Shown: positions 535 to 12,686 of the stretch, piece by piece | Layout: the number at the start of each line of letters is the position of its first letter | How positions within the stretch are numbered: position 1 is the first letter of the stretch | DNA from: an uncultured Streptomyces sp. | Lineage (GTDB): Bacteria > Actinomycetota > Actinomycetes > Streptomycetales > Streptomycetaceae | Assembly: GCA_946480485.1 (NCBI GenBank) | Contig: CAMLJW010000111.1 | Location: 1-12,686 of the forward strand | Direction of reading: 5' to 3' | DNA: 12,686 nucleotides | The notes under the pieces: model-generated | Told to the model about the DNA's origin: nothing | Database searches by the model: none | What the model saw: the letters and a program-made list of their open reading frames with translations, nothing else | Made by a program: the position numbers and the translations under genes

Positions 535-666
535 GTGACCACGCTCGCCGTAACCACAGACCGCACCACCGCACATCGATCGTCTGACGCGGACCGCGCC
601 GCGATCCCCACACTCGCCACAACCGGCTGCACCCGGTCCTACGACACGCTCAGGGACGGCAAGTGA
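535..666 (+). CDS. 43-aa small protein, coupled to DUF2637 gene
   Basis: GTG at 535 is preceded by AGGAG (522-526) with an 8-base spacer, a good ribosome-binding site. The frame runs 43 codons (MTTLAVTTDRTTAHRSD... ending LRDGK) to TGA 664-666, which overlaps the ATG at 666 of the membrane-protein gene. The peptide is polar, with no signal peptide, membrane segment or recognised domain. It could be a real small protein or a leader that sets translation of the next gene by coupling. The strong RBS and exact stop/start overlap support translation; the function is unknown. Confidence 0.5.
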   Translation: MTTLAVTTDRTTAHRSSDADRAAIPTLATTGCTRSYDTLRDGK

Positions 667-1475
667 TGACCAAGCGCGCCGCCGAACGGTATGCACTCGG
701 CGCGGCGGGAGTCGTCATTATCGCCCTCACCGCCGGAGGGTTCTGGCTCTCGTACGCGCACCTCGCCGAGGTCGCCGGGCAGCACGGGCTGGGGGGCTCC
801 CCGGTCCGCCAGTGGGCCTGGCCGGCGACCCTGGACGCTTTCATCGTCGCGGGCGAGTTGCTGATGCTCCGTGCGGGCCTGCGCCGGGTACCGGACTGGT
901 GGGCCATCGGCCTCACGGCCACCGGATCAGTCGGCTCCATCGCGCTCAACGTCGCCGGGGTCAGCCGTACAGGGAACGCCACCGCTGTCTCCCACCTCGA
1001 CTACGTGGTCGCCGCAGTTCCCCCGACTGCCGCGCTACTGGCCTTCGGTGTCCTGATGCGGCAGATCCACCAGCTCGTTGCCGAGTCCACCGAACGTCAC
1101 CACGCAGCCAACCACGGCCACAACCTCACCGTCGGCGCACAGCCCGCTGCACTTCCGGAAGACCACCCCGGTCTGCCGGAGCCAGCCGGTCTCGACGTGG
1201 CAGACGGCCAGGGCGACGTGGCGCAGGGGCCTGCCGAGGTGGCGCAGAAGCCCCCCGCTGTGTCCGACGGGTACCTCGCGATCGCCCGCACCGCGCCGCT
1301 GGGACGCGGAGGCCGCGCCTCGCGCCGCCACATCGAAGCGACGATCCGCGGCAAGGGCCTGTCCATCAGCAGGGCTGACGCGGAAACGATCAAGGACGTC
1401 CTGCAGGGCGAGCTCGACGAGGCCACCTCTCAGCGGCAGGCCGAACGCGACAAGGCCCCCGCTGACGCCTACTGA
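663..1475 (+). CDS. DUF2637 four-helix membrane protein
   Basis: The protein has 270 aa if started at GTG 663, or 269 from ATG 666. AGGGA at 652-656 is a suitable RBS, and the ATG overlaps the upstream stop. Four hydrophobic segments are visible: about residues 11-33 (after KRAAERY), 51-70 (WAWPATLDAFIVAGELLML), 79-100 and 112-134. This pattern and the GFWLSYAHL and WPATLDAF motifs match DUF2637, a family of actinobacterial mobile-element membrane proteins. A polar linker follows (about 140-200). The soluble end (about 203-262, around GRASRRHIEATIRGKGLSISRADAETIK in two short helices) looks like a small winged-helix or DNA-binding module. It may act in plasmid spread, replication or mobilisation at the membrane, as suggested by the following mobC and relaxase genes. 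Its exact role is unknown. Confidence 0.8.
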   Translation: MMTKRAAERYALGAAGVVIIALTAGGFWLSYAHLAEVAGQHGLGGSPVRQWAWPATLDAFIVAGELLMLRAGLRRVPDWWAIGLTATGSVGSIALNVAGVSRTGNATAVSHLDYVVAAVPPTAALLAFGVLMRQIHQLVAESTERHHAANHGHNLTVGAQPAALPEDHPGLPEPAGLDVADGQGDVAQGPAEVAQKPPAVSDGYLAIARTAPLGRGGRASRRHIEATIRGKGLSISRADAETIKDVLQGELDEATSQRQAERDKAPADAY

Positions 1476-1517
1476 GTCACGCAGCCGCTCCCATCACCCT
1501 TCGCGCACGACTCGCAC

Positions 1518-1553
1518 CCCTCGTCCCCGCGCAGGCCAGCGCGGGGACGAGGG
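1518..1553 (+). terminator. Perfect 15-bp GC-rich hairpin between DUF2637 and mobC genes
   Basis: The left arm 1518-1532 (CCCTCGTCCCCGCGC) pairs perfectly with the right arm 1539-1553 around a 6-base loop, AGGCCA. There is no T-run after it. It lies 43 bases past the DUF2637 stop, so a terminator or attenuator is the simplest reading. Because it sits in the only sizeable gap before the mobilisation genes, it could also be a structural part of an origin of transfer. Confidence 0.55.
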
Positions 1554-1626
1554 CCCGAGCCGCTACGAGTCCACCTGACATCGCCGCCCCTCCCGTCCTT
1601 GCCCTGACCAGGCATGGGACGAGCGT

Positions 1627-1641
1627 GCTCAGTCACTGAGC
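1627..1641. promoter_or_regulatory. Inverted repeat GCTCAGT-C-ACTGAGC upstream of mobC
   Basis: A perfect 7-bp inverted repeat around one central base, ending 28 bases before the mobC start. MobC proteins and relaxases bind short inverted repeats near their own genes, so this may be an operator or an oriT element. I see no match to a known nic consensus that I can vouch for. Confidence 0.4.
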
Positions 1642-1669
1642 GGCCACCAACACCCCCCGGAGAACACCC

Positions 1670-2317
1670 ATGCGCAAGCAGACCCACGAACTCCCCACCA
1701 GCGAGCAGAAGATGACCACCACCCCAGCCACAACGCCAGCAAGGTATCCCGCTGGACCGTCCAAGGGCCGGCTCAACGGGGATCCCTCCGCCCCGGGGGT
1801 GGCGGAGGGGCTCGGGCACCAGGGGGCGCCCGAGGGGAAACAGCCCGCAGGCACCGCAGCCGCCCAGCTGCCGCGTGCTGCCGACGCCGCCGCGCTGCAC
1901 CGCGTCGCCCGCCGCCGCCAGCGCGAAGCCGTGCAACGCAAAGAACGCGTCGATGTGCGCTACAGCGTCGACGAGAAGGCCGACATCCTCAACGAAGCTC
2001 GCTCGCTGAACATCGCCGGCGCCCACTACGTCGGCGCCGTCGTCATGGCCCACGTCCACGGTGATCTCGCCCTGCCCGGCCAGCGCACCGAACTCGACGA
2101 CTACATAGACGAGCTGACCGCCCTCCGTGGCGAGGTCGCCAAGATCGGCCACAACATCAACCAGATCGCCAAGAAGCTCAACTCCGGCGGCCATCCACAA
2201 CCTGTGGACACCGCCGTCCTGGCCCAGGGCGAACGCACCCTGACCGCGGTCGGCGCCACCGTCCGCCACATCGCCGCAGCCGCGAACCAGGCCGTCACCA
2301 AGAAGGCCGCCCGATGA
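1670..2317 (+). CDS. mobC: MobC-like mobilisation accessory protein
   Basis: 215 aa; ATG 1670 is preceded by GGAGAA (1659-1664). Residues 1-90 are Pro/Ala/Gln-rich and probably disordered. A basic stretch (RRRQREAVQRKERVDVR, about 81-97) leads into a ribbon-helix-helix-like region (about 93-130). The MobC signature follows at about 152-174: LRGEVAKIGHNINQIAKKLN. MobC proteins bind oriT with the relaxase, help open the DNA and so assist nicking. The stop overlaps the relaxase start by ATGA, so the two are translationally coupled. The N-terminal extension is longer than in classical MobC. Start codons further in are possible, but the RBS favours 1670. Confidence 0.85.
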   Translation: MRKQTHELPTSEQKMTTTPATTPARYPAGPSKGRLNGDPSAPGVAEGLGHQGAPEGKQPAGTAAAQLPRAADAAALHRVARRRQREAVQRKERVDVRYSVDEKADILNEARSLNIAGAHYVGAVVMAHVHGDLALPGQRTELDDYIDELTALRGEVAKIGHNINQIAKKLNSGGHPQPVDTAVLAQGERTLTAVGATVRHIAAAANQAVTKKAAR

Positions 2318-4014
2318 TCGCGAAGATCAGCAGCGGCAAGGAGACCGCCGGATTGATCCGGTACCTGTTCGACACGAAGAAGGCCAAGGACCACACCGAC
2401 CCGCACCTGGTCGCCTCCTGGGACGGCTTCGCCCCCGACCCCGGCCGCAGCGACGACGTCGACGCCACCAGGAGGCTCCTCGTCGCTGACCTCGACCTGC
2501 ACGTCAAGCAGGCCCGGCGGCTGGGCCGCGCGCCCGAGCGGCATGTGTGGCACTGCTCGCTCCGTGCCGCCCCCGAAGACCGCATCCTCAGCGACGAGGA
2601 GTGGGCCGACATCGCCCGCCGCGTCGTGGCGGCCACCGGCATAGCACCGGAAGGCGATCCGGACGGATGCCGATGGGTCGCCGTCCGCCACGCCCCCGAC
2701 CACATCCACATCGCCGCCACCAAGGTCCGGGCGGATCTGCGCACCGCGCGGCACTGGAACGACTACCACACCGCCGACCGTGAACTCGCCGCCATCGAGA
2801 AGGAATACGGCCTGCTCCAAGTGGTCCGCGGGGACCGCACCGCCGCCAAGCGGCCCACCCGCGCCGAGCAGGAGAAGGCCCGCCGCGCCGGCCAGGACAA
2901 GCCCGCCCGCGAACGGCTGCGCACCATCGTGCGCACCGCCGTGGCAGCCGCCTCCAGCATGGAGGAATTCGTCCACCTGCTCAGCCACATCGACGGCGTG
3001 CTCGTGGAAGTCGTGTACTTCCCCTCCGGTGATGTGCGCGGCTACAAGGTCGCTGCCGAAGACACCACCACCGCCGGCAAGGGGCCCGTGTGGTTCTCCG
3101 GCTCCGAACTCGCCCCCGACCTGTCCTTCCTCAAGATCCAAAAGCGCCTGGAAAACATCGACCCGCGGCCCGCTGGGCAGCCGGGCTGGCGCAAGCCCAA
3201 CCCCTGGCACCAGGCCACCGCCGCAGCCGAACGCATCCCCCACCGCCTCGACCAGGCCGACGACGAAGCCTCCCAGGCCCACCTCGCCGCCTTCGGCGAA
3301 GCCCTCGACGCCCTCCCGCTCCTCGCGCCCCAGGCGCTGCGGCCCCAACTTCGTGAGGCGGCGGTCGCGTTCGAGCGTGCCACTCGCTCCCGCATCCAGG
3401 CCGAACACCACCACGCCCGCGCACTGCGCGGCGCCGTGCGGGCGATGGTCCGCGCACCGGCCCCCAAGGACGGCGCCATCCTGGCGATGTTCCTGGACGC
3501 CGCGATCCTCGTCGTGATCGCCGCGGCCCGCTGGCACCAGCTCCGCCAACACGACCAGCAAGTCGCCGCCGCCCAGCAGACCCTGCTCCACCTCCAGGCC
3601 GCCTACGACCAAGCCGCAGCCGCACCCCTGGCCGCCCTCGCCCAGCGCCGGCCACCCCAGCAGACGGTAGACCGGCACATCCGCCACCTGCGCCAGGCCG
3701 TGCCCGATCATGTGGACCAGGTGCTCGAAGACCCCGCTTTCGACGCTCTCACCGCTGCCCTCGCCGAAGCCGAGGCTGCAGGCCACAAGCCGGAGCAGCT
3801 CCTCCAGCAGGCCGTCGACCAGCGTGCCCTGGCCAGCGCCCGCCGCCCCGCACGGGTACTGACCTGGCGTATCGAGCGCCTCAGCGCAAGGCCGCTACCA
3901 AGCACACGAGCGCGCGCAGCACAGGCCCGCAGCGCAGCACAGCGTTCCAACGCTCCGGTCCACGCGGCAGCCGCCGTCCCAACCGCGCAACCGTCGCACA
4001 CACGGCGGCGCTGA
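2314..4014 (+). CDS. MOBP-type relaxase / mobilisation nuclease
   Basis: 566 aa. The enzyme should nick oriT and stay joined to the 5' DNA end through a tyrosine during transfer. The likely catalytic Tyr is Y17 in GLIRYLF (motif I). The metal-binding motif III is R125-H-A-P-D-H-I-H-I133, with H126, H130 and H132, and HVWHCSLR at 77-84 is the usual strand before it. The nuclease domain spans about residues 1-170. A basic linker follows, then a middle domain to about 285. The C-terminal part is Ala/Gln/His-rich with a hydrophobic stretch at 387-405 (AILAMFLDAAILVVIAAA), then a probable coiled coil (about 406-445). The end (LASARRPARVLTWRIERLS) resembles other actinobacterial relaxases. No helicase or primase domain is visible. 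It is co-translated with mobC; no coupling protein or type IV secretion gene is visible here, so the element is more likely mobilisable than self-transmissible on this evidence. Confidence 0.88.
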   Translation: MIAKISSGKETAGLIRYLFDTKKAKDHTDPHLVASWDGFAPDPGRSDDVDATRRLLVADLDLHVKQARRLGRAPERHVWHCSLRAAPEDRILSDEEWADIARRVVAATGIAPEGDPDGCRWVAVRHAPDHIHIAATKVRADLRTARHWNDYHTADRELAAIEKEYGLLQVVRGDRTAAKRPTRAEQEKARRAGQDKPARERLRTIVRTAVAAASSMEEFVHLLSHIDGVLVEVVYFPSGDVRGYKVAAEDTTTAGKGPVWFSGSELAPDLSFLKIQKRLENIDPRPAGQPGWRKPNPWHQATAAAERIPHRLDQADDEASQAHLAAFGEALDALPLLAPQALRPQLREAAVAFERATRSRIQAEHHHARALRGAVRAMVRAPAPKDGAILAMFLDAAILVVIAAARWHQLRQHDQQVAAAQQTLLHLQAAYDQAAAAPLAALAQRRPPQQTVDRHIRHLRQAVPDHVDQVLEDPAFDALTAALAEAEAAGHKPEQLLQQAVDQRALASARRPARVLTWRIERLSARPLPSTRARAAQARSAAQRSNAPVHAAAAVPTAQPSHTRRR

Positions 4015-4226: not shown

Positions 4227-4670
4227 CTACTGCCAGCCGTGTTCTGTGAGAGGGCCGCTGTCGTCGAGGTAGCCGCGCAGGCCGGCCTCCGGGTACTCGA
4301 TGATGTCGTCGGGCAGGTCGTGCACGGTGAACCACTCAAGGGCGAGGCACTTCTCAGGCTCCTTGTTGACGGGCTGCCCTTCCCATTCGGTGGCCTCGAA
4401 GAAGAAACCGATCCGCTCCACCTGCGCGTCCTGCCGGTGGTGCACGGTCTGGACCAGGCGAAGGTGAACCGGGTCGACGGTGATGCCGGTCTCCTCGTAC
4501 AACTCCCGGGCGGCGCCGTCGGGAAGGGGCTCGCCTTGGTCGAGCTTGCCCGACGGCATGTGCCATCGGCCGTGACCGTAAGGGCCGCCACGTTGCGAGA
4601 AAAGGATTTTGTCGCCATCGCGGAGGATGACGTGAGTGTCGATGACGGGCTGTGCCGGTTGTCCGCTCAT
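4227..4670 (-). CDS. Nudix hydrolase
   Basis: 147 aa. It carries a textbook Nudix box G-x5-E-x7-R-E-U-x-E-E-x-G-U: G41, E47, R55-E56, E59-E60, G62, I63 (GKLDQGEPLPDGAARELYEE, then TGI). The fold surrounds it: a strand at THVILRD, HMPSGKL before the box, and IGFFFEATEWEG after it. The family hydrolyses nucleoside diphosphates linked to another group, such as (d)NTPs, NDP-sugars and damaged nucleotides; the substrate cannot be read from sequence. The start ATG (4668-4670) overlaps the kinase stop by ATGA. AAGGA lies only two bases before the ATG, so coupling probably drives initiation. It is the last gene of the minus-strand run. With a nucleotide kinase directly upstream, a nucleotide substrate is a reasonable guess. 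Confidence 0.9.
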   Translation of the reverse strand: MSGQPAQPVIDTHVILRDGDKILFSQRGGPYGHGRWHMPSGKLDQGEPLPDGAARELYEETGITVDPVHLRLVQTVHHRQDAQVERIGFFFEATEWEGQPVNKEPEKCLALEWFTVHDLPDDIIEYPEAGLRGYLDDSGPLTEHGWQ

Positions 4671-5323
4671 GTTCCTTGGGGGGTTGGATGGGTGGGTGGG
4701 GTGACCGACGCTATCGGCAGAGCCGGGATGGCGTCGGCGATTCGGCGTGCTACGTCCGATGGCGTGGCATTGTTGGTTTCGAGAAGCAGCACCCTTACCC
4801 CCTGCCTCATCAGCTGGGATGCGGCATCGGCGTAGAGCTCGACTTCCCGGCCGGGCGCCGAGGGGTCGAGATGGAAGCGGTGGGTGGCGCCGCGCGTTGC
4901 GATGCGTTCGGCGATGAGTCCCGGTTGCGCGGTGAGGATCACGGCGAGGTCCGGCAGCAGCGCGTGACGGTTGATGTCGAGCAGGAATTCCAAGGGCACC
5001 CCGTCGAGTCGTTGCAGGACAAGTGTCGAGGGCAGATAGCGGTCACTGATGATCAGTTGACCAGTCTGCAGCGCAGGTTGGATCTCACTCTCGATGTGCT
5101 CGTAGCGGTTGGCGGCCACCAGGCAAGCGAGCGCCAGGCCGTGGATCTGGTTCGAGTGGCCGCGGATGAACTGGCCCAGGTCGCTGGTGGTCGGCTCGAC
5201 CGTCCGCCGTGCGGGACGCCCCTGGGCGGTGAGATGGTCATGGAGCGCCTTCACCGTCGTGGACTTGCCAACCCCGCTGGGACCGTCGATCGTCACGAAC
5301 CATCCTGTGCGCTTGCCCGTCAC
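4667..5323 (-). CDS. Thymidylate-kinase-like P-loop nucleotide kinase
   Basis: 218 aa. The Walker A loop is GPSGVGKST (14-22) in FVTIDGPSGVGKST, the typical thymidylate kinase opening. The substrate-side loop reads EPTTSDLGQFIRG (43-55) where TMKs have REPGGT..GE.IR. DRYLPST (94-100) is the conserved D-R-Y/S element, and a LID-like stretch with RGATHRF (144-150) follows. A canonical Tmk phosphorylates dTMP to dTDP. The altered EPTTS loop and the genomic setting suggest a paralogue with a special substrate rather than the housekeeping enzyme. GTG start at 5321-5323 overlaps the radical SAM stop by GTGA, with a perfect AAGGAGG seven bases upstream. It overlaps the downstream Nudix gene by ATGA. 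Confidence 0.85.
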   Translation of the reverse strand: MTGKRTGWFVTIDGPSGVGKSTTVKALHDHLTAQGRPARRTVEPTTSDLGQFIRGHSNQIHGLALACLVAANRYEHIESEIQPALQTGQLIISDRYLPSTLVLQRLDGVPLEFLLDINRHALLPDLAVILTAQPGLIAERIATRGATHRFHLDPSAPGREVELYADAASQLMRQGVRVLLLETNNATPSDVARRIADAIPALPIASVTPPTHPTPQGT

Positions 5324-6861
5324 GCGGCGACCTCCTTGGCCCCCTGGTTCCGGTCGTGCTGCTCGCGCGTGAGCATCGCCAGCGTCGCCCTGATTCGCTG
5401 GAGCGGCACGTCGCCGAACTGGATGCCGACGGAGAAGTTGAACTCGTCGCGCTGTCGCATCGACTCGTCGGCGCCGTCACCCGTGAGATCTACGTCGCCG
5501 TATGCGAGGAGGGCGTCCGGGTCATGGCCGGTCTGGATGAGGGTCTGCCAGATGGGCGTGCCCGGATAGGGGCGGAACTCGAAGACACTGGCGCGCACGT
5601 CACCTGGGTGCTGGTCGGAAATCTGCCACAGGTTGCGGATGTGGCGGACGGTCGCGTCGAGGTCTTCCTGGCTTTCACCGGGAAAGCCCAGGATGAAGTA
5701 GCCCTTGACACCGATGCCGTGTTCGACCAGGCGGCTGGCGACGCGCTCGGTCATCTCGGCGTTGATCCGCTTGTCCATCGTCTTCAGGATGCGGTCACTG
5801 CCGGATTCGATACCGAGGGCCACTTCGCGCAGCCCGTTGGAGACGAGGCGTTCGAGCTCGCTGTCGGAGACCCGGTCAAGGACGTTGATGCGGCCGGTGG
5901 CGTCCCACACGTACCGCTCGCCGATCCGGTGCCGGGTGAACGCTTTCATCTGCTCCTCGATGACGTTACGCACGCCCAGGAACAGGTCATCGACGAACCG
6001 GAAGGCAGTCACACCGTACTTGTCGTGCAGCTGGTCGAGCTCGCCGATGATGTTCTCCGGGCTGCGGACCCGGATCGTGACGTCGGGGTTGGCACTCCAG
6101 GCGGCACCGCAGAAGGTGCAGTTGTAGGGGCAGCCACGGCTGCCGACGATGTTTGCCTCCATGTGCCCGCTGCGGGCAGCGGCCTGGACCCAGTCGGCGG
6201 GTCGGCGGGCAGCGAGGCGCCGGTCGGCTGCAGTGGACGCGGCCTGGTAGGGGTCCTGTGAGAGGAAGGCGCGGTTGACGTACGGCAGGGCGTTGATGTC
6301 CGGGCCGAGCATCTGCGCGCTCGTCTTCGAATCTGCGATGCCCGCGGCCCGGGTGCCGAGCAGCGGGTCACGCCAGAGCACGCCGGGCAGCTCCCGCCGA
6401 CGCGTTCCGTCCTCCAGGAGCGCAGCGACGCGCAGCTCCCCTTCGCCGAGCACGAGTGCCCGCAGGCTGGCCATGCGTGGGTCGGCCAGGACACGGTCCG
6501 GCATAGCCTTGGCGTGGTGCCCGCCGACTATGAGAGCAATGGCGGGGTCGAGTTGGGCGGCGATCCGGGCGGACATCTCGTAAGTGGGTGCGAGGAGGTT
6601 CATCGCGGCCCACCGGGGCTTGGCCCCGTTCACGATCTTCGCGGTCTCGTCGATGCCCAGACCGTGCGCCTCAGCGTCGAGGACGCCGACGTTGAAGCCG
6701 GCCTGCTGGGCGTAGGTGGCGATATAGGCCATGCCCAGCACGGGAAGCGTGTAGTCGTTGGTGCGCGGCCGCAGGGTGTAGTCGCGCAGCGGCGCGTTCA
6801 CGAACAGAGCGTCGAGCTCGCGGTTGATGTCGGCGCCCGTGAGCAGCTCTAACTGCCGCAT
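5320..6861 (-). CDS. B12-binding-domain radical SAM enzyme
   Basis: 513 aa. The N-terminal half (about 17-155) is a cobalamin-binding-like Rossmann domain: ALFVNAPLRDY, then IATYAQQAGFNVGVLDAEAHG, IVGGHHA and VLGEGE. The radical SAM core has the 4Fe-4S cysteines C244, C248 and C251 (CPYNCTFC) after NIVGSRG. It also has GIESGSDRILKTMDK (350-364) and GYFILGFPGES (387-397), typical of this class. Such enzymes use cobalamin and SAM for C- or P-methylation or for ring rearrangements; the B12 radical SAM enzyme OxsB acts on a deoxyadenosine phosphate. The usual B12 ligand motif D-x-H-x-x-G is absent (D62-A-E-A-H66-G). The RBS TGGAGG lies four bases before ATG 6861. Codon 4 is TTA (6850-6852). The glycosylase stop is 12 bases upstream, and the kinase overlaps the 3' end. 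Substrate unknown. Confidence 0.88.
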   Translation of the reverse strand: MRQLELLTGADINRELDALFVNAPLRDYTLRPRTNDYTLPVLGMAYIATYAQQAGFNVGVLDAEAHGLGIDETAKIVNGAKPRWAAMNLLAPTYEMSARIAAQLDPAIALIVGGHHAKAMPDRVLADPRMASLRALVLGEGELRVAALLEDGTRRRELPGVLWRDPLLGTRAAGIADSKTSAQMLGPDINALPYVNRAFLSQDPYQAASTAADRRLAARRPADWVQAAARSGHMEANIVGSRGCPYNCTFCGAAWSANPDVTIRVRSPENIIGELDQLHDKYGVTAFRFVDDLFLGVRNVIEEQMKAFTRHRIGERYVWDATGRINVLDRVSDSELERLVSNGLREVALGIESGSDRILKTMDKRINAEMTERVASRLVEHGIGVKGYFILGFPGESQEDLDATVRHIRNLWQISDQHPGDVRASVFEFRPYPGTPIWQTLIQTGHDPDALLAYGDVDLTGDGADESMRQRDEFNFSVGIQFGDVPLQRIRATLAMLTREQHDRNQGAKEVAA

Positions 6862-6873
6862 GGATCCTCCAGG

Positions 6874-7677
6874 TCATGGGGCATGTGAGCCCCAGGTGAG
6901 GGTCGAGAGAGTCAGGGTGTGCAGGGCAGTGCGGTCGCTTCCGGCCCATCCGGTCCACAGCGGGCCGAACGCCTTGTCTTTCTTGTCGGGCCACGGGTGA
7001 TCGGGTGCGATCTGGGCGGCCCAGGTGCGCACGGCGAGGTCGTCGTGCGGGTAGATGCTGAAGTCGCCGGTGAAGTCGGCGGTGGCCGCAGCGGCGGTCC
7101 ACGGACCGATGCGGGGGATACCCGTCAGCGCGGTGACCAAATCGGCGGCGTCCAGGTGTTCCCACTCGGTGTGATGCTGCTGGTAGTCAGCAGCCGCGGC
7201 CTGCAGGACGGTGCGGTGAAACTTTGCTCCGACGCCGGTGAACTCTTCGTCGGCCAAGGCCAGGACGTCGGCGGGCGTGGGTGACACGGCGAACTCACCG
7301 AACGGACCCTGGACAGTCGTACCGAACGTGCGGCACCAGGCGCGGTACAGCTTGCGGGCCTGGTCGGCGCGTACCACCTGCCGCAGGATCGCGGTACTGA
7401 TCGCGTCCCACAGCCATGGGTTCGCCAGACGCTGGGTGACGCCGAGCTCGTCGAGTCCGGCCCGCAGCGCAGCAGGGACTGTGGCGGGCAGGCAGGCAGG
7501 GTCCGTTGGGACGAACGTGGGCTTCACGTCTTCGGTGCCCTGCACACACTGCATGTGCAGGCCCTCCCTGTCGTGGGACAGGACCCAGATACCGGAAGCC
7601 GTACGGACGGCACGCGCGACTGTGCCGTTCTCCTGCGAGTGCCAGGCCGGGTGATCGGTCATCAGCACGCCGGTCAT
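6874..7677 (-). CDS. HhH-GPD (AlkA-like) DNA glycosylase family protein
   Basis: 267 aa. NPWLWDAISTAILRQVV (86-102) corresponds to the AlkA helix that begins the glycosylase core. The helix-hairpin-helix is LTGIPRIGPWTAAA (184-197). The catalytic aspartate is D213 in YPHDDLAVRTW, aligning with the D-x-x-I/V-K/R signature of AlkA. The N-terminal 60-70 residues resemble the TBP-like AlkA N-domain only loosely. Family members remove alkylated or otherwise altered bases from DNA. Here the neighbours are nucleotide-handling enzymes rather than repair genes, so a specialised base substrate or protective role is possible. ATG 7677 is preceded by GAGGAGC at good spacing. The gap to the radical SAM gene is 12 bases. 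An early in-frame Met (residue 6) is an alternative start. Confidence 0.85.
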   Translation of the reverse strand: MTGVLMTDHPAWHSQENGTVARAVRTASGIWVLSHDREGLHMQCVQGTEDVKPTFVPTDPACLPATVPAALRAGLDELGVTQRLANPWLWDAISTAILRQVVRADQARKLYRAWCRTFGTTVQGPFGEFAVSPTPADVLALADEEFTGVGAKFHRTVLQAAAADYQQHHTEWEHLDAADLVTALTGIPRIGPWTAAAATADFTGDFSIYPHDDLAVRTWAAQIAPDHPWPDKKDKAFGPLWTGWAGSDRTALHTLTLSTLTWGSHAP

Positions 7678-7722
7678 CGATTGCTCCTCGTGTTGTGCTT
7701 TGTTTCGCCGTAGCCTCTCGCG

Positions 7723-8007
7723 TCACGGGGGTTCGGGGTGCCACAACCAGCACAGCCCTGGACCTGGCTCTGCTGCTCGCCGGATCCGTTCTCGTCTGCC
7801 ATGTGGCGTTCCCTTCGTCAGAGGCGGTCGGCTGCCGCCCCTGAAGTAAGCGAGCGCCTGCAGCCTGAGGCGGTTGAGGCTCTGCTCGCACGCGTAGAGC
7901 GGGGCGTGTTGCCCACCCCACTGCACCGGGCCGAGCCAGATCACCAGGACACCGGTACGCCCGCAGCCGAGCCAGCAGTCACCGGTGATCCACGGCCACT
8001 CCTCCAT
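7723..8007 (-). CDS. Small Cys-containing protein, 94 aa
   Basis: ATG 8007 is preceded by AAAGGGGA with a 9-base spacer, overlapping the upstream stop region. The core reads WITGDCWLGCGRTGVLVIW then GPVQWGGQHAPLYAC. Cysteines C11 and C15, and C40 in ACEQSL, look like a small zinc-ribbon-type fold in which the expected fourth cysteine (C-E-x-C) is Ser43. The last 35 residues are Arg/Pro/Gly-rich and may be poorly conserved. I recall similar short Streptomyces proteins with 'W-x-GPVQW ... APLYAC' but know no function. It sits between the other small protein (18-base gap) and the glycosylase (45-base gap). Confidence 0.55.
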   Translation of the reverse strand: MEEWPWITGDCWLGCGRTGVLVIWLGPVQWGGQHAPLYACEQSLNRLRLQALAYFRGGSRPPLTKGTPHGRRERIRRAAEPGPGLCWLWHPEPP

Positions 8008-8025
8008 GGAAGGACGTCCCCTTTC

Positions 8026-8238
8026 TCAGCTGGTCGGGATAGTCGATCTGGCGGCCTGGCAGTTGGGAGCGCAGGCCCAGAGCTGGAACGGCAGGCCCCG
8101 GTGGCGTATCTCGCCCAGTCGTCGACCGCTCGCTCCCAGTGGCCGGGCACAGAGGGCGCAGTCCATGGCCATCTGCTGGCGGGGCCGGAGTCGGGTGAGA
8201 TCTGGAAGAGGCGAGGGCGCCGTGGCCGGGATGCTCAC
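8026..8238 (-). CDS. Small putative zinc-binding protein, 70 aa
   Basis: GTG 8238 overlaps the ATPase stop by GTGA and follows GAGGG at about 7 bases, so I prefer it to an upstream in-frame start at 8283. A shorter start at Met23 (8172) would leave just the conserved core. That core is DCALCARPLGASGRRLGEIR then HRGLPFQLWACAPNC. The C27-x2-C30 and C56-x3-C60 pairs suggest a zinc ribbon. Such mini-proteins can be DNA- or partner-binding; I know no experimental function. Its place directly after the regulatory ATPase suggests that the two work together. Confidence 0.6.
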   Translation of the reverse strand: MSIPATAPSPLPDLTRLRPRQQMAMDCALCARPLGASGRRLGEIRHRGLPFQLWACAPNCQAARSTIPTS

Positions 8239-8681
8239 TTGCCACCCTCGGTACGGAGTTCCGCCCAGACCTCTTTGCCCCAAGGGCGTCTGTCCGAGCC
8301 GTGCAGGTCGTAGCCCCAGCGGTCGGCGACAGCGTCGACGAGGAGCAGCCCGCGGCCCGACTCGTCGTCGTCAGCCGCCTGGCTGAGTATGGGAAGACGC
8401 GATGGTTCCCGGTCCACGACCCCGACACGCAGTCGAGTCGCGCTCGGCCGCCCAACCGTGAGGCGGATCTCGGGACACGGAGTGTGCCTAGAGGCGTTCG
8501 CGATGAGCTCGGTGATGATCAGCGCGGCACAGTCGGCGAGGCCGTCGAGGTGCCACACACCGAGGACGTCCCGGAGGAGTTCGCGGCCGAGCTCGGCCGT
8601 GGACGGCTCGCACGGGAAGGTCTGGCTGTACGTGGGGTGGCCTACGGAGAGGGCCTCAACTGGTGTTCTCAGACTCGTCAT
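8235..8681 (-). CDS. SpoIIAB/RsbW-like ATP-binding regulatory kinase
   Basis: 148 aa from ATG 8681; GAAGG lies 10 bases upstream. A GTG in frame at 8720 would add 13 Gly/Arg-rich residues with no visible RBS. The HATPase_c (GHKL) motifs are present: N-box ITELIANASRH with E58 and N62, G1-like VGVVDREP with D90, and G2 ESGRGLLLVDA (107-117). The small size and PSTAELGRELLRDVL start are typical of the many Streptomyces anti-sigma-factor-type ATPases, which phosphorylate or sequester regulatory partners. No sigma factor or anti-anti-sigma gene is nearby. It is the first gene of the minus-strand run and diverges from the XRE/TPR regulator, so it probably helps control the operon or senses its output. 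Confidence 0.85.
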   Translation of the reverse strand: MTSLRTPVEALSVGHPTYSQTFPCEPSTAELGRELLRDVLGVWHLDGLADCAALIITELIANASRHTPCPEIRLTVGRPSATRLRVGVVDREPSRLPILSQAADDDESGRGLLLVDAVADRWGYDLHGSDRRPWGKEVWAELRTEGGK

Positions 8682-8922: not shown

Positions 8923-10209
8923 ATGGACACCACCCGCAACACCGTTCTTGAGGCGTGGATGACCGAACACGGCTACAGCTCCAACAGCCTCGCCGAGGCC
9001 GTGAACAGGGCCATCGAACGGTTGACCGGACGCCCTGGTGGACTCGACGGCTCGTCGGTCCGGGCCTGGAAGGCAGGCCGGGTCACGTGGCCAAAATCAG
9101 CCGCCCGCAAGGCACTTGAGGACGTCACCGGACTACCCGCCATCGCCTTAGGGTTCGTGCCACGGAGCCGGCCTTCGTCCACCCCGGCCCCACCGCAGCA
9201 GGAGGACCCCGACATGAAGCGCCGCACCCTCGTCGGCAGCATCGCGGCGGCTGCCGCCGCAGCAGCAGCCGCACCCGGCACCGCATCGCCGCGCCGTATC
9301 GGCATGAGCGACGTCAACCGCCTCAACAAGCGCTTCGCCGAGATCATCGCCAGCGACCACCGCCACGGCGGACAACTCGGCATCGAACAGCGGGCCGCCG
9401 CCCTCGCCGACGAGGCGCTCAACCTCCAGAACGCGGGCAGCGCCACCCAGCGCGTACGCAGCAACCTCTACGCCTCAGCAGCCGCCTTCCGCTCCTCCGC
9501 GATGTGGGCCGCCATCGACGGCCGCCGCTACGACATCGCCAAGGCGCACATGCGCGAGGCCCAGGCCCTCGCCGAGATGTCCGGCGACCAGGCGATCAAG
9601 TTCCGCATCTGGAGCCACGCCGGCACCATGTACCGCCACATGGGCCGTCCGGCCGACGCGTTCGCCGCCAACGACGTCGCCCGCAACCTGCACCTCACCC
9701 GCCGTGACCCCCTGTTCGCCTCCCTCGGCCTGGCCCGCCAGGGGGCCATCCACGGCGCGGCACAGGACCGCACTGGTACCCGCCGGGCGTTCGAGCAGGC
9801 GCAGGACGCCATGTTGCGCGCCGACCCCGCCGATTACCGGCCGGTGTGGATGCTCGCCTTCTACGACCAGGCCGAGTTGGACTCCTTGGCCCTCTCCGCG
9901 CACTTGGCGCTCGGCGACTACTCGACGGCCGAGTACCACGCCCACCGCTGCCTGTCCGCTCTCCGGCCCCACATGATCCGTTCCCGGGCCATCGCCACCA
10001 CCCGGCTCGCCCACGCCCAGCTCGCCCAGGGCGCCCCCGACGCCGCCACGGCCACCGCGATGAAGGTCCCGGCCGAAGCCGCCACCCAGCACGCCCGGGT
10101 CACGCGCATGCTGCAGGAGTTCGGGGCCGCACTGCGCGCCACCGCGCCGGGCAGTTCCATCGCGCAGACCTGGACCGAGCACACCGCCACATGGAGGATG
10201 GCCGCATGA
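8923..10209 (+). CDS. XRE-type regulator with C-terminal TPR-like repeats
   Basis: 428 aa. Residues about 18-78 form a helix-turn-helix of lambda-repressor type (SSNSLAEAVNRAIERL ... SSVRAWKAGRVTWP ... LEDVTGLP). A linker leads to MKRRTLVGSI (98-107) and a run of ten alanines (108-117). This resembles a twin-arginine or membrane-anchor signal placed inside the protein. From about 135 to 420 the chain is all-helical with TPR-like pairs (for example AHMREAQALAEMSGDQA, AGTMYRHMGRPADAF). Such regulators sense a peptide, protein or small molecule through the repeats. The start appears leaderless. Codon 76 is TTA (9148-9150), implying a need for the bldA tRNA. It overlaps the GNAT gene by ATGA and diverges from the nucleotide operon, whose control is its likely job. 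Confidence 0.8.
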   Translation: MDTTRNTVLEAWMTEHGYSSNSLAEAVNRAIERLTGRPGGLDGSSVRAWKAGRVTWPKSAARKALEDVTGLPAIALGFVPRSRPSSTPAPPQQEDPDMKRRTLVGSIAAAAAAAAAAPGTASPRRIGMSDVNRLNKRFAEIIASDHRHGGQLGIEQRAAALADEALNLQNAGSATQRVRSNLYASAAAFRSSAMWAAIDGRRYDIAKAHMREAQALAEMSGDQAIKFRIWSHAGTMYRHMGRPADAFAANDVARNLHLTRRDPLFASLGLARQGAIHGAAQDRTGTRRAFEQAQDAMLRADPADYRPVWMLAFYDQAELDSLALSAHLALGDYSTAEYHAHRCLSALRPHMIRSRAIATTRLAHAQLAQGAPDAATATAMKVPAEAATQHARVTRMLQEFGAALRATAPGSSIAQTWTEHTATWRMAA

Positions 10210-10745
10210 CCACGGCGCCCGCCAACGAACTGCGCACCTTCACCACCCTCGACACAGCCCGCGGCGACCTCCTAGACGTGTACGCCGACGTACGCGCCCC
10301 ACTCCTCCACCTGCCGAACTACGCCGTCACCGCGTTCGGCGAGCGCCTAGACCGACACGGCACCGAGCCGGGGTTCACGGCCGTCCTCGCATACGCGGAC
10401 GGACATCCGGTCGGCTACGCCTACGGCAACACCATCGAGCACGGCGACCGCTATTGGCAGCGCACCAGCCCGACGCCGGCGGACAAGTACACCGAGCGCC
10501 CGGCCGTAGCACTCAAGGAGATCGGCGTCCGGCCCACCTGGCGGAAGACCGGCACCGCCCGTCGCATCCACGACGCCCTCCTCGCCACGCGCGACGAGCC
10601 GTACGTGACGCTCATGGTTAACCCGGCTGCTGGGGACGGAAAAGTTCATGCGCTCTACGAGTCGTGGGGGTATGAGGACATCGGGCAGAGCCAGCCGTCA
10701 CCGGCGTCGCCGGTCCTCACCGTGATGATCCGCGCCATCCGCTGA
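10206..10745 (+). CDS. GNAT-family N-acetyltransferase
   Basis: 179 aa from ATG 10206, which overlaps the regulator stop by ATGA. A much longer in-frame extension upstream is only a shadow of the regulator gene. Motif A is visible as ALKEIGVRPTWRKTGTARRI (102-121) with the acetyl-CoA loop R-K-T-G-T-A. The strand VTLMVNP and the ALYESWGYEDIG motif (149-160) complete the fold. The family transfers an acetyl group from acetyl-CoA to amines of proteins, antibiotics or metabolites; the substrate is unknown. Pairing with an XRE/TPR regulator as a two-gene operon suggests modification linked to that regulator or to the divergent pathway, for example self-protection. Confidence 0.8.
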   Translation: MTTAPANELRTFTTLDTARGDLLDVYADVRAPLLHLPNYAVTAFGERLDRHGTEPGFTAVLAYADGHPVGYAYGNTIEHGDRYWQRTSPTPADKYTERPAVALKEIGVRPTWRKTGTARRIHDALLATRDEPYVTLMVNPAAGDGKVHALYESWGYEDIGQSQPSPASPVLTVMIRAIR

Positions 10746-10894: not shown

Positions 10895-12091
10895 CTATTC
10901 CTCGTCATCCTGAGCCGGACGTTCTCGTTGTTGCCGTAGCCCCTCCATAAAGACACGAATCGTGGTCTCGTACGGTTCGTAAGAGAAGGCACCGCCGGGC
11001 GGACGAAGCGAAATCAAGTCATGTGCCACGACGAGAAGCGAAAGCAATAGTCGGTTCACATCTGAGGACGAAACGTCAGAATGCAGCCCCTTATTGCTCA
11101 GGCTGTCCAGCTTATCAATCCGTTTCCCCAAGTCCTCGACGTTCGCGATGAGTAGTTCTCGTGTCGTGTCAGAGGTGACGTTTTCCGCGACGTATGCCCA
11201 TAGACGGTTCCGGTACTCAGCCTGGCCGACCTTTCGCCCATTGATCTTTTCTTCACGCGGAGGATAAAGGCAGTCTGCAAGCTTTTCCGTGAATCGTCGG
11301 CAAGACAGCGAAACATGCGCCAGCCCTTCGGCTGTCTCGTGGCTCTCGAACGCTTTAAGGGCAGCGTGCATCCGTTGAGTGAGGTTCGGGTCCAGGTCTG
11401 AGCAGCGCATCAGGGTTTCACCCAGCGCGGATGAGAACTGGCCCTGAAGCAGTTCGTCCGCCTCTCCGAGCCTGCGAAAGTGCTGCATGTTGTCGTACGG
11501 ATCGAAGATGGTCTCCCGCACCCCGGAGTCCTCCCAACGGACGGAGGAGAGGAGGCCGGAAGCTTCCCACTCGCGATACTCCACGTGGTCCCGGTTATCT
11601 TCGACCTCCAGCTCATACTGTCTATGAAACAGGTAGAGGAAGTCTTCGAAGATCCGAAACCGACTCGGGATACCCTTCAGGAACACCGCCCAGTGTTCGG
11701 GAATCTCCGGACGAATCTGTACTGCCCCCAGGTACCACTCCGTGCCCTTTAGCCGGATGTGCATGGCGCGAGCGTCCGACGGAGTCAGAGATTCCACGAC
11801 CATACCTGCGATATCAAATGACTCAATATGCTTGGCAAGGTCCGGCCCAAGGAAGGTGCTCCAGACTGCCCAGTGCTCGCCGAGAACGCTGTTTGCAGCG
11901 TCCTCGGTACTGCTCACCTCTTGGGCAAGTCGCCGCAGCGGGAGAGTTCCCATGGAAAAACGGGCATGACGCCTATGCCGTGGAACGGATTCCATGAACG
12001 CTCGTACCAGGGATTCCCTCATGGTGAGCCATCCCCAGGTTCCGGCCTCCCGCGAGCTCCAACCTTCGTTAATCAGGAAACAGACTCTCAC
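10895..12091 (-). CDS. Unrecognised 398-aa protein with HEPN-like C-terminal domain
   Basis: GTG 12091 follows a GGGGGGA run and overlaps the stop of a 24-codon ORF by GTGA. ATG 12022 (Met24, GGGGA upstream) is an alternative start. I do not recognise residues 1-235; they are soluble, with aromatic and acidic patches (FRIFEDFLYLFHRQYELEVE). Residues about 238-363 are helical. LSCRRFTEKLADCLYPP and a lysine-rich turn are followed by YRNRLWAYV, then RIDKLDSLSNKGLHSDVSSS and a hydrophobic helix. The NKGxH turn between helices resembles HEPN-type domains of abortive-infection proteins, although the classic R-x4-6-H is not kept. GC is visibly lower than in the left part (34 of 60 G/C at 11641-11700 against 47 of 60 at 3301-3360). 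It probably arrived by transfer with its upstream partner; a defence or toxin role is inference. Confidence 0.6.
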   Translation of the reverse strand: MRVCFLINEGWSSREAGTWGWLTMRESLVRAFMESVPRHRRHARFSMGTLPLRRLAQEVSSTEDAANSVLGEHWAVWSTFLGPDLAKHIESFDIAGMVVESLTPSDARAMHIRLKGTEWYLGAVQIRPEIPEHWAVFLKGIPSRFRIFEDFLYLFHRQYELEVEDNRDHVEYREWEASGLLSSVRWEDSGVRETIFDPYDNMQHFRRLGEADELLQGQFSSALGETLMRCSDLDPNLTQRMHAALKAFESHETAEGLAHVSLSCRRFTEKLADCLYPPREEKINGRKVGQAEYRNRLWAYVAENVTSDTTRELLIANVEDLGKRIDKLDSLSNKGLHSDVSSSDVNRLLLSLLVVAHDLISLRPPGGAFSYEPYETTIRVFMEGLRQQRERPAQDDEE

Positions 12092-12162
12092 TCATCCCCC
12101 CAAAAAACTGATTTCAACAGATGCTCCGCCCTGTCGGGCCTCAGGTCATTCAGAATAACCAC
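12088..12162 (-). CDS. Possible 24-aa coupled mini-ORF
   Basis: From GTG 12162 a short frame (MVILNDLRPDRAEHLL ... FWGDE) ends in TGA that overlaps the GTG of the 398-aa gene (GTGA). It fills the 78-base gap between the two low-GC genes. No clear RBS is present. It could be a coupling leader, or the displaced end of the upstream gene after a frameshift, since it is in a different frame from that gene. Confidence 0.25.
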   Translation of the reverse strand: MVILNDLRPDRAEHLLKSVFWGDE

Positions 12163-12169
12163 GCACAAC

Positions 12170-12686
12170 TCACTGTCCGTCGCTCGGCATCATAAAAGCG
12201 CCCAACGTGTTGATGAGTGTGGTCGCCTCCACCAGCAAGTCCGAGAACGCGTGAGCGAGACCCTTCTCGTCAAGAGCAAAATGGTCGGCAGCTCGCTCGT
12301 AGTCCCTGCCTTTCACGTGAGCCGGCCCACTGCGTAGACCGTTGAGATTACGCAGCAGCGCGATGAGTTCTTGTCTGTCAGGAAACCCGACCTCATCCAG
12401 GTACTTCTGAAACTTCGTGATTCCCTTGTCGCCCTGCTCGACCGTAATATGCTTGGCGATCTCGCGTTCGTTCAAGCGCTCAACGAGAACCTTCGACAGC
12501 GACATGACCTGGTCGTCGAACTCCCGCTGATTCTCGCTCGCAGGTACGTGCAGCGTCGCCCAGTAGTGCTCATCCTCCTGCTTGAGCGGCTTGAACAGAT
12601 TCCATCCAAAGCACTCATGCCAGTCGTCGCGGAAACGCCCGTACGAGGCTTTGAAGGCGAGCGCTGGTTCGTCGGCATCTGCCCAC
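12170..12686 (-). CDS. HEPN-domain protein, C-terminal part (5' end outside window)
   Basis: The frame is open from the right edge to TGA 12170-12172, giving 171 visible residues; an internal ATG at 12505 is not the true start because coding continues upstream (FRDDWHECFGWNLFKPL, then HYWATLHVPAS). The C-terminal region is helical with NLNGLRSGPAHVKGRDYE. Here R-S-G-P-A-H fits the HEPN ribonuclease motif R-x4-H, and the A-H-x-K-G-x-x-Y context is typical of HEPN domains in defence proteins. HEPN proteins usually cut RNA or form the toxin or effector half of an anti-phage system. The N-terminal partner domain is out of view, so the protein's class is open. It lies upstream of the 398-aa gene on the same strand, probably in one operon, in the same low-GC segment. 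Confidence 0.6.
   Translation of the reverse strand, partial: WADADEPALAFKASYGRFRDDWHECFGWNLFKPLKQEDEHYWATLHVPASENQREFDDQVMSLSKVLVERLNEREIAKHITVEQGDKGITKFQKYLDEVGFPDRQELIALLRNLNGLRSGPAHVKGRDYERAADHFALDEKGLAHAFSDLLVEATTLINTLGAFMMPSDGQ

Follow-up and report, generated by a model that had tools for sequence, protein, structure and literature searches.

The window considered here is the whole stretch of 12,686 nucleotides at positions 1 to 12,686 of contig CAMLJW010000111.1 (GenBank assembly GCA_946480485.1), from an uncultured Streptomyces sp. Its minus strand carries, at positions 4227-7677, a conserved unit of four genes that encode a predicted DNA glycosylase, a B12 radical S-adenosylmethionine (rSAM) enzyme, a thymidylate-kinase-like enzyme and a Nudix hydrolase. 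We consider it probable (about 0.6) that this cassette is a mobile nucleotide-antimetabolite unit, in which the synthesis of a nucleotide analogue is combined with built-in self-protection. The reading is built on the linkage of the genes, their conserved active-site residues, a separate clade of kinases and the exchange of partner genes, all of which were observed directly. The four genes are as follows.

4227-4670, minus strand: Nudix hydrolase, 147 aa (PF00293, 72.9 bits, cut-off 21.1)
4667-5323, minus strand: thymidylate-kinase-like nucleotide kinase, 218 aa (PF02223, 93.2 bits, cut-off 27; TIGR00041, 97.7 bits, cut-off 83.25)
5320-6861, minus strand: B12 rSAM enzyme, 513 aa (PF04055, 75.9 bits, cut-off 29.5; PF02310, 48.4 bits, cut-off 32.1)
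6874-7677, minus strand: predicted helix-hairpin-helix (HhH)-type DNA glycosylase, 267 aa (profile match to AlkA-like structures; fold of the model)

The rSAM/kinase and kinase/Nudix pairs each overlap by four bases, and the glycosylase/rSAM gap is 12 bases. The initial annotation had described a seven-gene operon, and the coordinates of the open reading frames (ORFs) bear out seven minus-strand genes with overlaps or gaps of 45 bases or less, the widest gap being 45 bases. The families proposed for the cobalamin-domain rSAM, the kinase and the Nudix enzyme also stood, all over the Pfam cut-offs. As an operon, however, the last four genes are conserved and the three upstream genes (an ATP-binding gene and two small ORFs) form a variable head, all three being kept together, among the loci compared, at one other locus only (L001).

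The window's rSAM has 289 relatives in the genome collection, and all window proteins were searched at the loci of the best 80 of these 289, which make 79 distinct loci. At L001-L025 the glycosylase and kinase genes adjoin the rSAM gene in 25 of 25 cases and the Nudix gene in 23, which contradicts the suggestion, raised earlier as a ground for doubt, that the homologues might rarely co-occur. One in-frame stop each is present in the rSAM gene of L001 and the kinase gene of L017; L028 and L029 hold all four genes with the rSAM interrupted, L026, L027, L031 and L033 hold parts only, and L030 and L032 have the rSAM alone. Four Nocardia loci (L019, L020, L024 and L025) show the order kinase-glycosylase-rSAM with a convergent Nudix gene, so membership of the unit survives rearrangement. 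Four-base overlaps occur within the unit at most loci; order, overlaps and membership are kept across five genera, plasmids and a phage, and dN/dS values of 0.05-0.35 in all 12 gene pairs tested indicate purifying selection on the cassette. The rSAM-only loci L030 and L032, those among L034-L079 and the viral loci L089-L095 were not counted as cassettes. The patescibacterial rSAM at L030 (36% identity) was rejected as a candidate, as it has no kinase, glycosylase or cassette nearby and one weak Nudix-like match 4 kb off. An rSAM-kinase fusion, P0003 (731 aa), was left unused because a one-base indel in the contig's four-base overlap would look alike.

The distribution is patchy and mobile: the rSAM was found in 18 of 392 Streptomyces genomes (E ≤ 1e-60) and the glycosylase family in 26 (E ≤ 1e-15), including all 18 with the rSAM. 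The profile searches of these 392 genomes scored few candidates per genome (3, 6 and 7). In addition, the rSAM is present on 12 streptomycete plasmid records (11 Streptomyces and one Kitasatospora) at an identity of at least 59% over at least 98% of its length, three contexts of which were read, and a protein 95% identical to the window's rSAM is annotated on a plasmid of Streptomyces sp. CWNU-52B. All 12 plasmid records with DNA similar to the window are from Streptomyces. Furthermore, Streptomyces phage SF3 carries the four-gene set upstream of an integrase gene, and 5 of 12 IMG/VR loci contain the rSAM, one of them cut at a contig end and not all of them independent.

The active sites were examined in four alignments, which kept, window included, 29 of 33 rows (A1, glycosylase), 25 of 33 (A2), 24 of 37 (A3) and 23 of 29 (A4). 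The rows dropped were rSAMs with a stop or cut short (L001, L026-L029, L031 and L033), distant rSAMs (L030 and L032), the kinases of L017 and L033 and, by choice, near-duplicates. The glycosylase matches no Pfam family at E ≤ 0.01, and its membership is by profile and fold: its profile matches the Archaeoglobus fulgidus AlkA structure 2jhj (E 7.4e-9), and its model (pLDDT 94) matches OGG1/AlkA folds with a probability of 1.00, the identity to the solved structures matched being 12-17%. D213 is invariant in 29 of 29 rows and lines up with the Asp conserved in A. fulgidus AlkA, which we take to be the catalytic one. The predicted HhH fold and the position of this Asp place the protein in the HhH-GPD group, in agreement with the AlkA-like assignment made initially. 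In the rSAM, the CX3CX2C motif is present and C244, C248 and C251 are invariant in 24 of 24 rows; PF02310, as listed above, predicts an N-terminal cobalamin-binding domain. Its AlphaFold model (pLDDT 85) is about equally like AprD4, MgmA, OxsB and TsrM, and the chemistry is therefore not readable from the fold. The Nudix box GX5EX7REUXEEXGU is present with G41, E47, R55, E56, E59 and E60 invariant in 23 of 23 homologues, and the nearest structures are mixed (plant Nudix hydrolase 1, MutT-type, geranyl diphosphate hydrolase, NUDT1 and NUDT15).

The kinase is the member of the cassette that ties it to wider relatives. Its P-loop and DRY motif are invariant in 25 of 25 type A rows (type A being the window's own gene set), which puts it in the thymidylate kinase fold family. 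A profile built from type A rows gave 36 strong loci in 35 of the 392 Streptomyces genomes (E ≤ 1.1e-49), followed by a gap, since housekeeping thymidylate kinase (Tmk) begins at 6.7e-30 (open frames of about 1,000 aa). Thirty-five of the 36 loci adjoin an rSAM gene or its remnant: 16 lie beside a window-type rSAM, and the other 20, which were fetched and read, comprise two remnants of type A (L143, where pieces of the rSAM are left, and L126, which has just the kinase and Nudix genes), 11 loci of a type B and seven of a type C. By type the kinase loci are thus 18 A (one without rSAM), 11 B and 7 C. Across the phylum, 5 of 396 genomes match the kinase (E ≤ 1e-36), namely one type A (G001), two B-like and two weaker ones; the weaker matches (G400 and G429) were set aside, no rSAM cassette being found there.

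A tree was built from 48 kinases, of which 24 are type A, 11 type B, 5 type C and 8 housekeeping; in it the cassette kinases form one clade apart from the housekeeping rows (100/100); type B is one group (99/97) and so is type C (97/81), and type A is not resolved as a single group. Five of the seven type C kinases were taken (L137 and L144, damaged or short, were omitted), together with eight of nine housekeeping-like regions (L163 omitted). The Tyr of the AYQ motif is present in 8 of 8 housekeeping Tmk and in none of the 40 cassette kinases, where the residue is aliphatic throughout. The residue before AADR is Val in 24 of 24 type A and Ile in 11 of 11 type B kinases, and an aromatic Tyr is retained in 5 of 5 type C kinases. 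The loop behind the AYQ position is at least one residue shorter in 40 of 40 cassette kinases and two shorter in 38, in accordance with the changed substrate loop noted at the outset. As a set, the conserved aromatic pocket residues of a dTMP-specific housekeeping Tmk are not found. The AYQ Tyr and the aromatic residue before AADR are presumably sugar and base contacts in Tmk; because such residues are changed, the cassette kinase likely has an altered substrate. It is not a housekeeping copy, a possibility that the initial annotation had kept in view and that is ruled out by the separate clade and by the 35 of 36 loci beside an rSAM gene or remnant.

The three types share the kinase family and differ in its partners. 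Type B (11 loci) combines the kinase with a 369-aa rSAM (cut by the contig end in L130), an exodeoxyribonuclease III (ExoIII)-like protein and a MazG-like protein. Its rSAM is nearest to SPASM-type families, under their cut-offs; the ExoIII-like protein is over the cut-off for PF03372 and under it for TIGR00633 (61 bits, cut-off 99); and the MazG-like protein has an EExxE...ExxD motif invariant in 11 of 11. At the 7 type C loci the kinase is accompanied by a 385-aa rSAM, which is partial in L136, L137 and L144; all 7 also have a DEDDh exonuclease, and 5 of them an aldo/keto reductase. The types A, B and C therefore repeat one recipe of rSAM, nucleotide kinase and DNA-repair-type enzyme, to which A and B add a nucleoside triphosphate (NTP) pyrophosphatase-type enzyme.

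Type C rSAM relatives were found on 24 plasmid records, and 12 of these contexts were read. On the Streptomyces plasmids (five read of six listed), the order thymidylate synthase - nucleoside diphosphate (NDP) kinase - rSAM - exonuclease is found in 5 of 5; the next gene is annotated as ATPase or ATP-binding in four and as hypothetical in one, and is of the AAA_28 type in the one tested. An aldo/keto reductase gene is present in four of these five, and one of them also carries a MazG-like gene and, convergent, a NUDIX gene. That plasmid, of Streptomyces sp. NBC_01304 (L207, 2822-10875), has the most complete recipe observed, with these two genes in one run with those for thymidylate synthase, NDP kinase, rSAM, exonuclease, ATPase and aldo/keto reductase. 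A Nocardia record has the exonuclease, ATPase and aldo/keto reductase, and its rSAM stretch is annotated only as hypothetical proteins. The presence of thymidylate synthase and NDP kinase suggests, for these type C relatives at least, a pathway of deoxypyrimidine nucleotides that ends in a triphosphate. In alphaproteobacteria, 6 of 6 plasmids read carry rSAM - exonuclease - AAA family ATPase, with an HD-domain gene in four; the one ATPase tested is of the AAA_28 type, and the copies in Labrenzia and Roseibium are not independent, having protein accessions in common.

Five of these six alphaproteobacterial plasmids have defence-type neighbours, by record annotation and with no control: CBASS genes in one, an anti-phage dGTPase with TIR and helicase in another, VapC with ABC-3C and helicase, VapBC with helicase, and a DNA methylase in the others, and none in the sixth. 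In particular, on Sinorhizobium meliloti psymA (L202) the rSAM - 3'-5' exonuclease - AAA family ATPase module is annotated beside CBASS genes, and on an Agrobacterium vitis plasmid (L203) beside anti-phage dGTPase, WYL and TIR genes. Judged by these annotated neighbours, this module is a defence candidate in its own right. Separately, at L145, L147 and L150 the glycosylase family occurs without the B12 rSAM, beside a mutually related gene (29-32% identity) that is endonuclease/exonuclease/phosphatase-like by eye and gave no match in the NCBIfam search; L145 has in addition a different rSAM and a gene with a weak ExoIII-like match (E 0.004). This arrangement is perhaps another cassette type.

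We infer the substrate, the order of steps, the product and the target of the window's cassette as follows. The B12 rSAM would alter the base or sugar of a (deoxy)nucleotide, and the thymidylate-kinase-like enzyme would phosphorylate the product, or its precursor, toward the triphosphate. Host NDP kinase would complete the triphosphate; on Streptomyces plasmids the type C relatives come with an NDP kinase gene of their own. The analogue triphosphate might then poison DNA synthesis of a phage or competitor, while the Nudix hydrolase would destroy it in the host (self-protection at the level of the pool) and the glycosylase would excise the misincorporated base from host DNA (self-protection at the level of the chromosome). 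A glycosylase as guardian suggests, weakly, an altered base. The recurrence of rSAM, kinase and repair enzyme suggests, by analogy with Photorhabdus thmABC, the synthesis of DNA-directed nucleotide analogues with built-in immunity. The functional interpretation given in the initial annotation, that the set could make, phosphorylate or trim an unusual nucleotide while the glycosylase protects or edits host DNA, is thus partly supported overall. A wider proposal, which we put forward tentatively and at less than even odds, is a modular DNA-directed nucleotide immunity: interchangeable rSAMs would make different toxic dNTP analogues via one specialised thymidylate-kinase-like enzyme, and each module would have a matched self-protection pair, namely Nudix or MazG-like for the pool, and for the chromosome a glycosylase against an altered base or an ExoIII-like or DEDDh exonuclease against a 3'-end blocker. 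With repair enzymes matched in this manner, the chemistry of an analogue could be predicted from the repair enzyme that accompanies it.

Several results weigh against the antimetabolite reading and hold it at its present level. No biochemical evidence was found on any cassette protein. The Nudix gene was not detected at two of the 25 type A loci (L012 and L013), 8 of the 26 genomes with the glycosylase family have no rSAM, and the strong kinase is present in 15 of the 18 rSAM genomes; the three without it (G104, G155 and G174) have a truncated rSAM or an interrupted cassette. The identity of the MazG-like protein is given by its motif and one record's annotation, with weak profile matches (5ie9, E 0.014; phosphoribosyl-ATP diphosphatase, E 0.007). 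Only the kinase family and the shared recipe link type C to the window, and the two plasmid type C kinases tested belong to a different P-loop family, AAA_28. The window's rSAM and glycosylase have no match at E ≤ 0.01 in PADLOC-DB 2.0.0. Finally, defence genes were not enriched when 140 proteins flanking 20 cassettes (14 of type A, 5 of B and 1 of C) were compared with 135 proteins of 20 random regions, PADLOC matches being 5/140 against 16/135. This control was drawn from 10 Streptomyces genomes only, four flank loci being from other actinobacteria; the control proteins were longer in sum (49,739 against 41,628 residues), the genes were called by a simple script and the counts are protein-by-family matches. 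HTH_31 was richer in the cassette flanks (11/140 against at most 2/135). In the same PADLOC database the Nudix enzyme matches PDC-S07 and the kinase matches PDC-M51B and, more weakly, VakA, mad3, mad8 and SspC, and the core genes of known anti-phage systems are not recognised.

As to the target, a phage is suggested by the presence of the cassette in SF3 and by the defence-type genes beside the alphaproteobacterial type C cores, and the lack of defence enrichment in the flanks counts against it; antimetabolite synthesis with self-protection is therefore held at the probability given at the beginning. A phage target is mildly favoured over a secreted nucleoside antibiotic. The latter, in which the same chemistry would give a dephosphorylated product exported to competitors like 4'-thiothymidine, with Nudix and glycosylase as resistance, is possible, at odds well below those of the antimetabolite unit. 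It agrees with the absence of defence enrichment around the 20 cassettes and with thmA-C, experimentally the closest precedent, in which three genes (rSAM, kinase and NTPase) with differing flanks yield an antibiotic (PMC12691670), but carriage by an integrase-bearing phage and the type C defence neighbours are more typical of cell-autonomous immunity, and no transporter gene adjoins the cassette in 4 of 4 annotated type A contexts read.

Two further explanations are both improbable. Under DNA modification or restriction, the alternative that the initial annotation had named, a modified nucleotide would mark host DNA and the glycosylase would attack DNA with the wrong base; glycosylases and nucleotide kinases do occur in base-modification conflicts. 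The replacement of the glycosylase by an ExoIII-like or DEDDh exonuclease in types B and C, however, fits 3'-end or damage repair better than recognition of a single base, and an NTP hydrolase would presumably counter the building of the mark. The cassette might instead be a nucleotide-pool hygiene and DNA-repair module for host stress, with the rSAM as a repair enzyme, like spore photoproduct lyase. The Nudix, MazG-like, glycosylase, ExoIII-like and DEDDh proteins are indeed of repair or sanitising families, yet this leaves unexplained why the kinase is steadily paired with three rSAM partners and why thymidylate synthase and NDP kinase genes adjoin the type C rSAM, and the patchy, mobile distribution in 18 of 392 genomes also argues against it. 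A chance neighbourhood of unrelated genes on a mobile element is hardly credible: the mobile setting is all that favours it, and it is contradicted by the order, overlaps and membership kept across five genera, plasmids and a phage.

Beyond the four genes, the window has the following features.

7674-7802, minus strand: 42-aa ORF of uncertain status, sharing ATGA with the glycosylase start
7723-8007, minus strand: small ORF, 94 aa as read, part of the regulatory head, with similar stretches at other cassette loci
8026-8238, minus strand: small ORF, 70 aa, four-base overlap with the ATP-binding gene
8235-8681, minus strand: HATPase-type (anti-sigma-like) regulator, 148 aa (HATPase_c_2, 25.9 bits, slightly under the cut-off of 27.4)
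8923-10209, plus strand: NsdA-family TPR-like regulator, divergent from the cassette (NF053720, 275 bits, cut-off 75)
10203-10745, plus strand: GNAT acetyltransferase adjoining the NsdA-family regulator (PF00583, 24.2 bits, cut-off 20.7)

The 42-aa ORF overlaps ORF 7723-8007 in a different frame. The last third of the latter is doubtful, a homologue of its first part being 64 aa (L128); this first part has 84% identity at L001 and 39-64% identity to stretches at 4 of 10 type B loci (L125, L128, L138 and L141). The 70-aa ORF has a homologue at L001 and a 48% match at the glycosylase-only locus L148. A relative of the ATP-binding regulator is found at 17 of 49 chosen cassette loci (10/30 A, 5/10 B and 2/9 C, some not independent) against 0 of 20 random loci. 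On the plus strand at 663-4014 are a protein with a homologue annotated DUF2637 (PHROG label excisionase) and, both by eye, a MobC-like ORF (1670-2317) and a relaxase-like ORF with a HIHI motif (2314-4014), which suggests that the window lies on a mobilisable element. On the minus strand at 10895-12505 is a stretch of low GC (0.57 against about 0.70) that encodes a 398-aa and a 111-aa protein and is possibly a further accessory system; searches of the 398-aa protein against Pfam, NCBIfam, PADLOC and PHROG gave no match at E ≤ 0.01.

The kind of system proposed, in which an rSAM makes a nucleotide analogue and self-protection is supplied, is already known. As far as the literature was searched, what is new is the B12 enzyme in such a cassette, the kinase clade common to the three types and repair enzymes that are interchangeable. 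None of types A, B or C was found described in open-access full text, which leaves out preprints and most subscription papers, and the cassette is not described in the available parts of PMC10853773, PMC12839542, PMC7159879, PMC10865869 and PMC10058120. If the reading is true, plasmids and prophages of streptomycetes carry small nucleotide-poison factories with built-in antidotes, from which new nucleoside analogues could be obtained and which would form a counterpart of viperin directed at DNA. Moreover, since the on-board repair enzyme hints at a change of base or of sugar, the chemistry of B12 rSAM enzymes on nucleotides would become testable.

The cassette can finally be compared with known systems. 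The kinase shares with housekeeping Tmk the fold family, the P-loop and the DRY and AADR-type motifs and differs in forming a separate clade, with 24-36% identity to the eight rows used. The glycosylase has the fold and catalytic Asp position of AlkA/OGG1-type HhH glycosylases and differs from them in lacking a Pfam family match and in its low identity, as given above. The characterised B12 enzymes OxsB (oxetanocin), AprD4, MgmA and TsrM have 16-20% identity to the window's rSAM and act on different substrates, and none of them is known to come from such a cassette. Viperin (RSAD2) with CMPK2 and the prokaryotic viperins also place rSAM nucleotide chemistry beside a nucleotide kinase gene, with an antiviral role (PMC10058120 and PMC10865869). 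The type A rSAM is, in contrast, of the B12 type, and its membership of the viperins was rejected, as no pVip/PADLOC match was obtained at E ≤ 0.01; the type B rSAM matches pVip weakly (56 bits) and the NCBIfam viperin model at 48 bits (cut-off 180). The cassette repair enzymes point to DNA rather than RNA as the probable target, unlike viperin. The closest parallel appears to be thmA-C of Photorhabdus (rSAM, nucleoside kinase and NTPase), which suffices for the production of 4'-thiothymidine in E. coli; the product enters DNA and thmC alone protects (PMC12691670). Unlike the window's cassette, thmA-C has three genes, is gammaproteobacterial, has a kinase that is a distant AbmG homologue and is described with no base glycosylase. 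By gene make-up, rather than by sequence comparison with ThmA, ThmB and ThmC, the cassette nevertheless resembles thmA-C in that compact genes for an rSAM, a kinase and an NTP hydrolase travel together while their flanks change (PMC12691670).

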